This document shows, one piece after another, positions 13,009 to 18,018 of a stretch of 64,000 bases of DNA. The notes beneath the pieces are model-generated. The model searched no databases. It saw only the letters and a program-made list of their open reading frames with translations, and was not told the DNA's origin. The stretch is from an uncultured Gemmatimonadota bacterium (lineage in GTDB: Bacteria; Gemmatimonadota; Gemmatimonadetes; Gemmatimonadales; Gemmatimonadaceae), in assembly GCA_902826615.1 (NCBI GenBank), contig CADEFN010000002.1, forward strand, positions 62,001-126,000, in the 5' to 3' direction. The translations under genes were made by a program, and so were the position numbers. Positions within the stretch are counted from its first letter, which is position 1, and each line of letters opens with the position of its first letter.

Positions 13009-14355
13009 ATGACCAGCATGCCGCAGAACCGGGTCGCCGCACCAGCCCACGTCGCCCATCGTACTTCGTTTGGCACCATCTGGAACATGTCGTTCGGGTT
13101 CCTGGGCATTCAGTTCGGATGGGCGCTGCAGATGGCGAACATGAGCGCCATCTATGAATACCTCGGCGCCAGCCCCGACGAGATTCCCATGTTGTGGCTG
13201 GCCGCACCCCTGACCGGGTTGCTGGTGCAACCGATCATCGGGCATCTGAGCGACAACACCTGGTCGCCAACGTTAGGCAGGCGTCGCCCCTTCTTTCTCA
13301 TCGGCGCCCTGCTCAGCTCGTGTGCGCTCATCTTCATGCCGCAATCGAGCACGCTCTGGATGGCGGCAGGACTGCTCTGGATCCTCGACGCCTCCATCAA
13401 CGTCTCGATGGAGCCCTTCCGCGCCTTTGTCTCCGACCTGCTGCCTCAATCGGAACGGACACGCGGCTTTGCCATGCAGAGCTTCTTCATCGGGCTCGGG
13501 GCCGTCATCGCCAGCGCCATGCCGTGGATGCTCACCAACTGGTTCGGTGTGGCGGACAGCACGCCTGGCACGATCCCCATGACGGTGCGGCTCTCGTTCT
13601 ACATCGGCTCTGCGGCATTCCTCGGGGCGGTGCTGTACACCATTCTCACCACGAAGGAGCATCCCCCGGCCGACCTTGCCGAGTTCCAACGCAAGAAGGC
13701 GGAGAGCCGAGGGGCGATGGCGATGGTGCGCGAGATCCGGGAGGCGGTGGCCCACATGCCGGAGACCATGCGTCGCCTGGCCCCTGTGCAGATCTGCACC
13801 TGGCTGGGTCTCTTCTGCATGTGGCTCTATTTCCCCGTCGCGGTCGCGCGAAACGTCTTCGGCGCACCGGACACCAGTTCACCGCTGTATCAGCAAGGTG
13901 TGGCATGGGCGGGGGTCTGCTTCGGGGCCTACTCCCTCGTGTGTTTTGTCTTTGCGTTCTGCCTCCCGCCGCTGGCCCGCAAGTTCGACCGCAAGGGCAC
14001 GCACATGATCTGTCTGCTCGCCGGGGCTGCGGGACTCATCTCGGTCGCCTTCATCAAGAATCCCAATCTGCTGCTGCTCTCCATGACCGGTGTTGGCATC
14101 GCGTGGGCCAGCACCCTCTCCATGCCCTACTCCATGCTGGCCGGGTCGCTGCCCGAGGGGAAAACCGGGATCTACATGGGGATCTTCAACTTCTTCATCG
14201 TGATTCCCGAGATTGTCGCATCGTTAGGCTTCGGCTGGGTGATGAACAACCTGCTGGACAACAACCGGATGGCGGCCGTGGTGGCAGGTGGCGTGTTCAT
14301 GATCATTGCTGCCCTGCTGGTGCTGCGGGTGAATGACAAGGGAGAGACCGCGTGA
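13009..14355 (+). CDS. SLC45-like MFS sugar transporter
   Basis: 448 residues with about 12 hydrophobic segments. The start is supported by GAGAGGAAG just upstream. The N-terminal half carries [36 protein letters not shown] and [11 protein letters not shown], the pattern of the SLC45 / plant sucrose carrier-related MFS branch that sits beside maltose-utilisation genes in Bacteroidota. It lies between malQ and a secreted alpha-amylase-family enzyme and overlaps the latter by GTGA, so maltose or maltodextrin uptake across the inner membrane is the likely job. Two CGTTAGGC octamers (13271 and 14222) each encode a Leu-Gly pair with TTA. Confidence 0.87.
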
Positions 14356-16190
14356 GGCATTGTTCGAGATCCCTGCTGATGCTGGTGGCGTGGCTGCCGG
14401 GAATCGCGCTGGCTCAGGCGCCGGCCGTGACGAAAGTGGAGCCCCCCAATTGGTGGGCCGGGAGCACGGTGAATCCCGTGAGAGTCATGCTCCGCGGGCA
14501 GAACCTCACCGGGGCACGTCTGGACTGCGGACGGCTGCGCTGCAGCAATGTGAAGGTGAACAGCAGCGGCACCTACCTGTTTGCCGACGTGGCGATCGGC
14601 AACAACACACGTCCCGGTTCGTATCCGCTCACCGTGCGGTCTGCCGCCGGTTCGGCCAGCGCCCCCTTTGCCATTGCACCACGGCTCGGGTCGGCTGGGC
14701 GTTTCCAGGGTTTCGGGCCTAACGATGTGTTCTACCTCCTCATGCCTGATCGCTTTGCGAACGGCGACACGGCGAATGACAACCCGGCGGTCTCGCCCGG
14801 CCTGCACGACCGCAGCAAGGGACGTTATTACCACGGGGGCGACCTGGCTGGGGTCAGACAGAAGCTCCCGTACCTCAAGAGCCTCGGGATCACCACTATC
14901 TGGATGAACCCGATCTATGACAACAACAACGCTCTGAACCGCAAGGAAACGTACGACAACCAGCCGATCACCGACTATCACGGCTACGGGGCCACGGACT
15001 TCTACGCCGTCGATGAACATCTCGGTGACATGGCGAGTGTGCGCGCACTGGTGGACGAGGCACACACCATGGGCATCAAGATCGTGCTCGACATGGTGGC
15101 CAACCACTCGGGACCGTATCACCCGTGGGTGCAGGACGCGCCGACACCCACCTGGTACCACGGCACCGAAGCGAAGCATCTCGACGAAACCTGGCAGACG
15201 TGGACCCTGGCCGATCCATACTCTACCGACGCGATGCGCCGCGCCACGCTGGACGGCTGGTTCATCAACATTCTGCCTGACCTCAATCAGGACGATCCCG
15301 AGGTCGCGCGCTACATCATCCAGAACACCCTCTGGTGGGTGGGGATGACCGGCATCGACGGCATCCGCCAGGATACGTGGCCGTATGTGCCGCGGTCGTT
15401 CTGGAAACCGTGGATGGCGGCGATCAAGCGCGAGTACCCGCGGGTGGACGTGGTGGGCGAGGTCTTTGATGGCGATCCCGCGATGATTGCCTTCTTCGAA
15501 GGGGGCCGCACCAAGCATGATGGCCTCGACGACAAGGTCGACGCACTCTTCGACTTTCCGCTCTACTACGCCATCCGCAGTGCCTTTGCCTCGGGGCGCT
15601 CCATCAAGGATGTTGCGCAGATGTTGTCGCGCGATCATCTCTACAAAACCCCGTCATCCCTCGTGACGTTTCTGGGCCTCCACGATGTGTCGAGGTTCAT
15701 GAACGAGCAGGGTGCCACCGTGCAAGGCCTCAAGCTGGCGTACACCTTCATGCTCACGGCACGCGGCACACCGCTCATCTACTACGGTGACGAGGTGGCT
15801 CTCCCTGGCGGAAACGACCCGGATAATCGCCGCGACTTTCCGGGCGGATGGGCAGGTGACGCGGCCAGCGCTTTTGAAGCGACTGGCCGTACCGCAGTAC
15901 AGCAGGAGGTCTGGTCGCACGTACAGCGTCTGCTTGCCATTCGCGCGCAACGCGCAGACCTGCGCACCGCCCCCATGGAACACCTCGTCGCGAATGATGC
16001 GGTCTTTGCCTACCGCCGCGGCAAGACAGTGGTGGCGCTCAACAACGCCAAAGGTGAAATGAAGGTGACGGTGGCAGTGGGCCGGCTCGGCGACGACTTG
16101 CTCAGCGTCTGTCCGGCGGCCCGGCCCGGAGACGGCGGCACAACCATCACCATCCCGCCACGGGCGGGGTGTGTGTTTCCAGTGCAATGA
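14352..16190 (+). CDS. Secreted alpha-amylase family enzyme (GH13, neopullulanase/cyclomaltodextrinase-like)
   Basis: 612 residues from a GTG that overlaps the MFS stop (GTGA). A signal peptide ends at ALAQA. Residues about 25-110 form an Ig-like N-terminal domain (cyclomaltodextrinase N type: VEPPNWWAG). The GH13 barrel starts at DVFYLLMPDRFANGD. The catalytic residues are visible: nucleophile Asp341 in GIRQDT, acid/base Glu370 in VGEVFDGDP and Asp445 in GLHDVSRF. A small C-terminal beta domain follows. It should hydrolyse cyclic or linear maltodextrins in the periplasm, feeding the adjacent transporter and MalQ. The exact specificity (neopullulanase or cyclomaltodextrinase) is not determined by sequence. 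Confidence 0.92.
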   Translation: MRHCSRSLLMLVAWLPGIALAQAPAVTKVEPPNWWAGSTVNPVRVMLRGQNLTGARLDCGRLRCSNVKVNSSGTYLFADVAIGNNTRPGSYPLTVRSAAGSASAPFAIAPRLGSAGRFQGFGPNDVFYLLMPDRFANGDTANDNPAVSPGLHDRSKGRYYHGGDLAGVRQKLPYLKSLGITTIWMNPIYDNNNALNRKETYDNQPITDYHGYGATDFYAVDEHLGDMASVRALVDEAHTMGIKIVLDMVANHSGPYHPWVQDAPTPTWYHGTEAKHLDETWQTWTLADPYSTDAMRRATLDGWFINILPDLNQDDPEVARYIIQNTLWWVGMTGIDGIRQDTWPYVPRSFWKPWMAAIKREYPRVDVVGEVFDGDPAMIAFFEGGRTKHDGLDDKVDALFDFPLYYAIRSAFASGRSIKDVAQMLSRDHLYKTPSSLVTFLGLHDVSRFMNEQGATVQGLKLAYTFMLTARGTPLIYYGDEVALPGGNDPDNRRDFPGGWAGDAASAFEATGRTAVQQEVWSHVQRLLAIRAQRADLRTAPMEHLVANDAVFAYRRGKTVVALNNAKGEMKVTVAVGRLGDDLLSVCPAARPGDGGTTITIPPRAGCVFPVQ

Positions 16191-16239
16191 GCGTCGTCCC
16201 CCGAGCGCAAGGAAACCTCCGCCAAGGAAGGAGATAGTC

Positions 16240-16830
16240 ATGCATCGCATGTTTCTCAAAGAGGTTGAAGACGCGAGCGGTTCGGGTGCCTACGCCCGCA
16301 GGATCGATGGCATGCGCACCGCTGGTGCGACCATACCGCAGATCATGCACCTCTTCGCCTTCAAACCCGACCGCACCGATCACCTGGCGAAGTTCACCCA
16401 CGCCGTAATGCGCGGGCCGTCGCCGCTGTCGCCGGGACAACGCGAGCTGATTGCCGCATTTACCTCTCGCCGCAACGACTGCCCGTTTTGAATCGGCTCA
16501 CACGCCGCGGTCGCGGCGGAGTTGTTAGGCAGCAGGGCCCTCGTCGACGCCGTCCTCGCCGACTACACCACGGCCCCGATCACGCCCGCCGAGAAGGCGC
16601 TGTTTGCCTTTGTCGACAAGGTCAACCGTTCGTCCAACCAGATGGGGCCTGCCGACATCGACGAGGCAAAGGCCGCGGGGTGGAGCGAGGAGGCACTCTA
16701 CGACGCCATGACGGTGTGTGCCCTCTTCAACTTCTACAACCGCTGGATCGATGCCTCCGGCGTGAGTGACATGACACCCGCGGACTATGAGCAGTCCGGC
16801 AAACGCATGGCGACTGGCGGATACGGCTGA
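16240..16830 (+). CDS. AhpD-like peroxidase-related protein, probable selenoprotein (in-frame TGA at 16489-16491)
   Basis: Read through one TGA, the frame is 196 residues. The start has AAGGAAGGAG about 7 nt upstream. The active-site segment is CPF(TGA)IGSH: Cys81, TGA at 84, His88, with Glu69 exactly 12 residues before Cys81. This is the Glu-x11-Cys-x2-Cys-x3-His layout of AhpD/carboxymuconolactone-decarboxylase peroxidases, where the second Cys attacks the peroxide. Only that residue is replaced by TGA, the frame and homology continue without a shift, and no other stop interrupts. A hairpin with a GGTC loop starts 11 nt after the TGA. CxxU selenoproteins of the AhpD-like group are known. 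The alternative is a simple TGC-to-TGA nonsense mutation or sequencing error giving a pseudogene. No selenocysteine machinery is in the window. It sits 49 bp after the amylase gene. Confidence 0.7.
16503..16518 (+). promoter_or_regulatory. Candidate bacterial SECIS hairpin
   Basis: CGCCGC and GCGGCG form a perfect 6-bp stem around the loop GGTC. Eleven nucleotides separate it from the TGA at 16489-16491, the same spacing as in E. coli fdhF, whose apical loop also contains GGUC. By general bacterial SECIS rules (at least one G in the first two loop bases, short upper stem, 16-37 nt from UGA to loop) it qualifies, with 17 nt to the loop. The Ala-Val-Ala-rich coding could produce such a stem by chance in GC-rich DNA. 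Confidence 0.5.
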
Positions 16831-16857: not shown

Positions 16858-18018
16858 CTATCGCGTGGTGCCCGGGTGAAACTCCCGCCAGCTGTGCCAG
16901 AACTCCTGGCTCGCCTTGAGCCGGCGGAGCCCGCCTAACGCGCGCCCACTCACGGGCCACACCTGGCCACCAGCCATGAGAGAATCACCCTGCACCGTGA
17001 ACACCAGGTCGGGACTGGGTCGCTCGTAGGCGTAGAACGAGGCGTTGTCGGGCGCCAGCGCTATGACCACCGGCAGCCCACCGACGTCATCGTTGATCAC
17101 CCGCGCCTGCCGCAGGACATTCCAGTCGAAGGCCTTGCTCTGTTCATTGTATTCGATGCCGATGACCCACGACTTCTCACCCCACGACGTGGTATCGGTG
17201 CCCGTGAGTGTCTTGCGGCTCGATCCGTTTTCAAATGCATAGTCCTTGGCGTACTCGCCAGCAAAAGCAGGATCCGCCTGCATAACGAGCGAACGGGGAT
17301 GCAGCGCCAGCCACTCGGTTAGTGTCACTTGCAGCGAGGGGATTTCCTGCAGCGTGGCACCCTTCCGTTCACCGGTAACCGCTTCCCCATTCGCCTGACG
17401 CCACCAGCTTCCCGTCGTTTCGTCCTCGAACATGGCATTGAAGTGATCCATTCCAACAAGCCGGAAGCGTTCGGGCCTGCGGTCCACGATCGGGGAGTAC
17501 ACACGACCGGTGCGGCACACGGTGCAGTAACTCACCATCACCGGGACCCCACCAACCGAGTCGCGCACCTGGTGGTGGTAGCCGATGTACTGCAGTGGGT
17601 AGGCACGCGCCTCGCCATTCACTTCCACGCCCACGACGAGCCGGTCACCGGCCACACGATTTCGAGCAGTCGGCAGCATTGAAAGCGTGCGGGGTTGCTT
17701 GAATGTCTGGTCGGCCGCCATCCGGAAGTTGGCCGCATAAGCAACCACGGCGACTGCGGCCACCGCGACGACCCCGACCCAGCGGCGTCTGCCACCCGGT
17801 CGCCACCAGCTCGCCGCCCCGGCCAGAGCAAGCGCGCCTAACGCCAGACGCACGGGCCACCGCCAGGTATGGATCGCGTAGGCAAGGTCGAGACTGCGCA
17901 TTCGCTGGCTGCCCGGCATGGGCATGATGAAATACACGTTCACCGCCTCGTACACGATGAGCCCGGCGATGCCGATCCAGAACAGTCCTTTCGTGCGTGC
18001 ATCGCGGGAACTCGTCAC
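16858..18018 (-). CDS. DUF3179 domain membrane protein
   Basis: 386 residues. Three hydrophobic segments lie within about residues 12-95, then a soluble domain with ARAYPLQYIGYHHQVRD, the Cys pair motif YCTVCRTGRVY and FNWNVL-like and GIEYNEQSKAFDW segments that define DUF3179. The function of the family is unknown; the conserved CxxC suggests a metal or redox role. The gene begins within the trehalase stop (ATGA overlap), so it is the last gene of the leftward transporter-trehalase-DUF3179 operon and runs convergent with the AhpD-like gene, 27 bp away. Two octamers (16933, 17836) supply TTA codons. Confidence 0.88.
   Translation of the reverse strand: MTSSRDARTKGLFWIGIAGLIVYEAVNVYFIMPMPGSQRMRSLDLAYAIHTWRWPVRLALGALALAGAASWWRPGGRRRWVGVVAVAAVAVVAYAANFRMAADQTFKQPRTLSMLPTARNRVAGDRLVVGVEVNGEARAYPLQYIGYHHQVRDSVGGVPVMVSYCTVCRTGRVYSPIVDRRPERFRLVGMDHFNAMFEDETTGSWWRQANGEAVTGERKGATLQEIPSLQVTLTEWLALHPRSLVMQADPAFAGEYAKDYAFENGSSRKTLTGTDTTSWGEKSWVIGIEYNEQSKAFDWNVLRQARVINDDVGGLPVVIALAPDNASFYAYERPSPDLVFTVQGDSLMAGGQVWPVSGRALGGLRRLKASQEFWHSWREFHPGTTR

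Follow-up and report, generated by a model that had tools for sequence, protein, structure and literature searches.

Conservation, codon choice and covariation across homologues indicate that a short hairpin just downstream of an in-frame TGA is almost certainly a bacterial SECIS (bSECIS) element, at which UGA would be read as selenocysteine (Sec) in an AhpD-like C-x-x-U enzyme. The hairpin lies in a 64,000-nucleotide stretch of Gemmatimonadaceae DNA, hereafter the window. SelB binding, Sec insertion and the activity of the product are deduced from sequence. The comparison of codons and hairpins between homologues with TGA and homologues with Cys at the same site favors the selenocysteine claim of the preliminary description: 128 of 134 distinct TGA sequences carry the hairpin, versus 0 of 37 Cys sequences. 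The suspected Sec site is thus now well supported, by a test that is independent of protein similarity.

The predicted selenoprotein gene and its hairpin

The features of the locus are the following.

16228 to 16233, + strand: AAGGAG, Shine-Dalgarno-like, 6 nt 5' of the ATG at 16240, from the letters
16240 to 16830, + strand: predicted selenoprotein gene (AhpD-like, "peroxidase-related"); taking the internal TGA as Sec gives 196 aa
16480 to 16491, + strand: codons TGC CCG TTT TGA of the CxxU redox motif (Cys-Pro-Phe-Sec), from sequence and translation
16489 to 16491, + strand: in-frame TGA, putative Sec codon (residue 84), with TGA kept in homologues
16492 to 16502, + strand: 11-nt spacer between the TGA and the stem; from the TGA to the loop there are 17 nt (16492-16508)
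16503 to 16518, + strand: predicted bSECIS hairpin, stem 16503-16508/16513-16518, from conservation, covariation and consensus fold
16509 to 16512, + strand: apical loop GGTC, of which bases 1 and 4 covary (G-C or A-T)

In the read-through translation, the frame is open from the ATG at 16240 to the terminal TGA at 16828-16830, the internal TGA at 16489-16491 being its sole break, and C-P-F-U is followed by IGSHAAVAAELLG. ORF calling cuts the gene in two at this TGA (16171-16491 and 16522-16830). The read-through protein scored 45.6 bits against the Pfam model PF02627 (CMD; cut-off, 23) and, with C in place of the Sec residue, 102.4 bits against the NCBIfam model TIGR01926, "peroxidase-related enzyme" (curated cut-off, 81.8). 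Homologues align along its full length across the TGA at 16489-16491. The upstream neighbor (window 14352-16190, + strand) is by eye an alpha-amylase-like ORF and the downstream neighbor (16858-18018, - strand) an ORF with a CTVC motif; a connection of these ORFs with the selenoprotein is not evident.

The hairpin CGCCGC/GGTC/GCGGCG had been placed at 16503-16518 by the preliminary description, and its letters and coordinates are exact. The stem draws on six codons, one more than the five positions counted there: it opens with the last base of the His codon CAC (16501-16503), and GCC GCG GTC GCG GCG (Ala-Ala-Val-Ala-Ala) supply the remainder. On the + strand, the window contains no other 6-bp Watson-Crick stem closed by a GGTC loop; the - strand has one. 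Comparable hairpins (6-bp stem, 4-nt loop, and G among the first two loop bases) are found 8 to 14 nt downstream of 27 of the 1,729 TGA triplets on both strands of the window. Moreover, about 10% of 20,000 codon draws, with the protein fixed and codons taken from the rest of the gene, yielded a hairpin of 6 bp whose loop carries G. Given these two frequencies, a lone copy of the hairpin is weak and at best suggestive evidence, and the case is therefore carried by conservation across homologues.

The hairpin was also compared with the bSECIS model. As given in PMC13188914, this model has a loop of 3 to 9 nt on an upper stem of 4 to 16 bp, at least one G in loop positions 1 and 2, mostly with flanking N1-N2 pairing, a distance of 16 to 37 nt from the UGA to the apical loop, and a minimum free energy (MFE) of at most -7.5 kcal/mol. 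The window hairpin has a 4-nt loop on a 6-bp stem, the loop sequence GGTC with bases 1 and 4 pairing, a distance of 17 nt, and an MFE of -17.2 kcal/mol for positions 16486-16530 (z, -1.93). An extension of the lower stem in the window's own fold was dropped, the consensus fold being devoid of such pairs. A search of the window and the SelA locus at Rfam gathering thresholds gave no match, a result without weight if bSECIS elements are not among the Rfam families.

Hairpin and codon choice in TGA and Cys homologues

Searching 149 related genomes gave a match in 87, and the best 32 of the matches listed each have one internal TGA. Of 170 relatives in a scan of named genomes, 80 were retained; by record name these belong to Acidobacteria, Gemmatimonadetes, Myxococcus, Corallococcus, Planctomycetota, one Cyanobacteria MAG, and others. 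In a phylum-wide search of 395 genomes, 182 had a match. The Sec codon is TGA in 79 of the 80 named-genome loci, the exception being L099 with TGC, and in all 30 loci drawn from the search of 149 genomes. The selenoprotein, split by ORF calling, therefore recurs across Gemmatimonadota, Acidobacteriota, and Myxococcota.

We aligned 195 loci at the Sec codon, 158 with TGA and 37 with Cys; removal of identical 123-nt segments left 134 and 37 distinct rows. One Cys row came from the named-genome scan, 20 were chosen from a longer list of stop-free matches in the 149-genome and phylum-wide searches, and 16 were taken from 108 plasmid records. Plasmid-borne Cys rows were counted whatever the Sec machinery of the host, and a 17th plasmid record, from Gemmatirosa kalamazoonensis, is a TGA row. 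Twenty divergent TGA rows were picked from the same match lists by stop status. Both the Cys rows and the divergent TGA rows were picked before any sight of their hairpin region. The Cys rows include one close orthologue (L099, 55% identity), the others being homologues of 24 to 48% identity. The spacing [U/C]-x-x-x-His is present in 134 of 134 TGA rows and 36 of 37 Cys rows, and the first Cys of the CxxU motif is substituted in several Streptomyces Cys rows.

A hairpin was scored when its stem had at least 6 bp and its loop started 14 to 20 nt past the Sec codon. The 128 TGA rows with such a hairpin compare with 28.0 expected from codon draws (maximum of 46 in 20,000 simulations), and for the Cys rows 1.2 were expected. 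These values are from the version of the codon null with all rows; a first version, without minus-strand loci, had 108 of the 134 TGA rows and 26 of the 37 Cys rows. In 122 of the 134 distinct TGA rows, the stem is in register with the loop starting at 17. Of the remaining six TGA rows, five have a 5-bp stem and one, L180, has none. The split between TGA and Cys rows persists at 0 to 45% identity, with the hairpin in 30 of 32 TGA rows and 0 of 34 Cys rows, and is thus not explained by low identity; these bands use the better-scoring of two queries, so that L099 was scored against itself. Equal conservation of the hairpin in Cys orthologues, which the preliminary description had considered fatal to its proposal, was not seen in any of the 37 Cys rows.

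The same description had proposed that synonymous choice should be constrained in TGA homologues and relaxed in Cys homologues, and this is what the codon counts show. In TGA rows, Ala +6 and Val +7 are nearly frozen: Ala +6 is encoded by GCG in 112 rows and GCA in 20, never by GCC or GCT (n = 132), and Val +7 by GTC in 99 and GTT in 16, never by GTG or GTA (n = 115). The other alanines are hardly freer, with GCC in 102 of 107 rows at Ala +5, GCG in 120 of 123 at Ala +8, and GCG in 93 of 103 at Ala +9. In the rest of the TGA-row genes, GCC and GCG account for 39% and 48% of Ala codons, and GTG for 48% of Val codons. The Cys rows, in contrast, use GCC 12 times, GCG 12 times, GCT twice, and GCA once at Ala +6 (n = 27), and GCC 16 times, GCG 11 times, and GCA once at Ala +8. 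Their Ala codons elsewhere in the gene (GCC, 47%; GCG, 40%) are comparable to those of the TGA rows. Our search of the openly licensed literature found no earlier report of this Sec/Cys codon contrast for the AhpD-like family. The paired Sec and Cys data provide a clean natural example of DNA under two codes.

Covariation, divergent rows, and the encoded peptide

The covariation analysis that had been suggested revealed compensatory changes in the stem. It used 122 in-register rows (114 distinct); the exclusion of 12 of the 134 TGA rows, whose in-register stem has less than 4 bp, means that this test favors structure, while the count of 128 in 134 keeps those 12. An unguided RNAalifold consensus of the 122 rows gave exactly the same six stem pairs. 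In these rows, 99.5% of the cells are paired versus 92.5% in shuffles, and both sides are changed in 45 cells versus 5.4, with 5 of 7 pairs affected. The covariation score was 0.216 versus 0.078 for shuffled alignments; no shuffle reached 0.216, and the score was far above those of slid versions.

The loop is constrained as well. Its second base is G in 122 of 122 rows of the covariation alignment. Its bases 1 and 4, at the synonymous third positions of codons Ala +6 and Val +7, change in concert, with GCG-GTC in 99 rows, GCA-GTT in 16, and mixed combinations in none. Over all 134 rows, with the 4-nt register imposed also on the 12 rows that have another register, bases 1 and 4 are G-C in 102, A-T in 20, G-T in 7, G-A in 4, and C-C in 1.

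The trees were quick ones with long branches flagged, and the tree for the loop coupling was built without the loop columns. The coupling involves 7 changes on this tree, and since only 3 independent pairs fall on starred branches, a sign test cannot reach 0.05. For the choice of CAC or CAT with Ala +9, just one of the 3 independent pairs agreed in direction. Switches between Sec and Cys number at least 6, of which 3 are forced by starred branches. The phylogenetic independence of the evidence from coupling and from Sec/Cys switches is therefore limited.

Divergent clades code the stem with other amino acids, as in GGC GCG GTC GCG TCG and TCC GCG GTC GCG GAG. In most members of a separate clade of TGA paralogues with the motif Y-U-x-x-H-H-G-A-G-L-R (L179 and L182-L189), the register is shifted and the loop has 5 nt (type CGGGN); with codons like GGA GCG GGT CTC CGT, these genes encode different residues for the same kind of hairpin. 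Another TGA paralogue, L180 (HAHDLR), has no hairpin at this location and either uses another class of SECIS or is no selenoprotein.

Two Cys rows retain part of the structure. L099, from an Acidobacteria MAG, reads CAC ATC GCC GTC GCG GCT, with four of six pairs possible and the loop CGTC. L156, from genome G086, reads CAC AGC GCA GTC GCG GCG and keeps the three inner pairs; it shares a starred set with 21 Sec rows, as the only Cys row among the 22, and its hairpin is lost. Judged by these remnants, both look like eroded SECIS elements. SelA is still present in the genome of L099, so that the loss of Sec there does not require loss of the machinery. Four Cys homologues with the motif Y-C-H-G-[AS]-H (L154, L198 from Sphingopyxis, and L200 and L204 from Ruegeria) adjoin on the tree the clade of Sec orthologues that contains L099, with a support of only 70. 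They are possibly a sister Cys lineage of that clade.

As the codons of the His-Ala-Ala-Val-Ala-Ala segment contain the element, RNA-level selection would fix the synonymous choices and probably the amino acids too. Among the Sec forms (n = 134), the hexapeptide is HAAVAA in 96, HSAVAE in 9, HGAGLR in 9, HGAVAS in 8, and HAAGAA in 7, four others occurring once or twice; the 37 Cys forms have 24 different hexapeptides. In the Sec forms, residues +5 and +9 change together (A..A, S..E, and G..S), and the RNA pairs are preserved. Whether the SECIS RNA dictates the amino acids beside the active site as well as their codons seems to us an even call. If it does, the apparent "co-evolution" of residues i and i+4 at this site is made by the RNA, and a switch from Sec to Cys frees the protein segment. 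Residue covariation in bacterial selenoproteins should thus be read with the warning that it may stem from RNA.

Decoding machinery, alternative readings, and known relatives

The window's genome encodes SelA (E = 5.3e-133), SelB (343 bits; cut-off, 242), SelD (379.8 bits), and a tRNA-SeC with the anticodon tca. The tRNA-SeC gene adjoins selD at G000:C3:14732-15847 (L209 and L211). Close to the start of selD there is an in-frame TGA, at what we take to be the catalytic Cys/Sec position, so that SelD is probably a second selenoprotein of this genome. The folds predicted for the downstream RNA of selD shift with the length folded. The tRNA-Sec family scored over its cut-off in 114 of 149 genomes, a figure unfit as a tally of Sec decoding because the family also matches control genomes (14 of 14, with 5 over the cut-off); many of the weaker matches are probably ordinary tRNAs. 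A covariance model of the element and its codons, run on the window's own genome, recovered the selenoprotein gene as its one match at a good E-value (2.0e-12), the next being at 0.213; this model gives no list of other selenoproteins, since it also models the AhpD codons.

In E. coli, the decoding of Sec directed by SelB and a SECIS is an established mechanism. In the window gene, the mRNA hairpin would fold 11 nt 3' of the UGA, and SelB carrying Sec-tRNA-Sec would bind its GGUC loop. With the UGA in the A site, SelB would deliver Sec; the hairpin would melt after this delivery and be translated as His-Ala-Ala-Val-Ala-Ala. The product would be a peroxidase-related, AhpD-like enzyme whose active site is C-x-x-U. 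The E. coli fdhF bSECIS is similar in that its hairpin also lies just 3' of a Sec UGA and bears a GGUC loop, the distance from the UGA to the loop being 18 nt in fdhF and 17 nt in the window gene. However, the fdhF fold extends further and, below a 3-bp apical stem, leaves a U unpaired, whereas the window hairpin consists of 6 uninterrupted base pairs and is bulge-free.

Other readings of the locus have to be considered. The hairpin could be a by-product of GC-rich Ala and Val codons in a conserved segment, arising without selection on the RNA; indeed, the codon resamplings of the gene and the chance hairpins next to window TGA triplets show that such structures form readily. This reading is nevertheless highly improbable, as it accounts neither for the excess of hairpins in TGA rows over the codon draws nor for the perfect synonymous coupling of the loop codons and the compensatory changes in the stem, and the Cys rows are devoid of hairpins despite their comparable Ala codons elsewhere. 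It is just as hard to credit that the TGA is an ordinary stop, due to a pseudogene, a sequencing error, or two split genes, with the downstream frame not in the same chain. TGA is found in 109 of 110 loci, from records named Gemmatimonadetes/Gemmatimonadaceae, Acidobacteria, Myxococcus/Corallococcus, and others, the protein is conserved on both sides of it, and the full Sec machinery is present; the way in which ORF calling divides the gene is what speaks for a stop.

Finally, read-through at the TGA might insert a residue other than Sec (Trp or Cys after a codon reassignment, for instance), and the hairpin might promote read-through or pausing in general. The inserted residue cannot be named from sequence alone, but the internal TGA falls where CxxC proteins have their second Cys, and SelA, SelB, SelD, and a tRNA-SeC reading this codon (tca) are all present. 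In addition, the selenoprotein gene itself terminates in TGA, so that TGA is not simply reassigned genome-wide. We regard this possibility as exceedingly remote and retain a bSECIS-directed insertion of Sec as the best reading of the locus.

Selenoproteins of this kind are not new. An "AhpD-like protein, TIGR01926, CxxU" family is already tabulated in a review (PMC13188914), and CxxU AhpD-like selenoproteins with predicted SECIS elements were reported from the Sargasso Sea (PMC1088965). The window protein resembles this family in its score above the model cut-off and in its CxxU motif, has Cys homologues (37 rows with Cys at the same codon), and comes from a host with SelA, SelB, tRNA-Sec, and SelD. 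It differs in that the host belongs here to the Gemmatimonadaceae and that the SECIS, the codon constraint, and the Cys contrast were measured across phyla. The selenoprotein and its SECIS are thus a well-supported new case within an already known selenoprotein family. A related model of AhpD-domain (seleno)proteins is NF041238 (AhpD_rel_CFYUT), membership of which was ruled out by a score of 46.9 bits against a cut-off of 175. Among solved structures, the AhpD/peroxidase-related proteins 2pfx, 2prr, 6k40, 3c1l, and 2oyo are sequence relatives (E = 1.2e-17 to 4.9e-15), and the best of them, 2pfx (E = 1.2e-17), has Cys where the window protein would have Sec.
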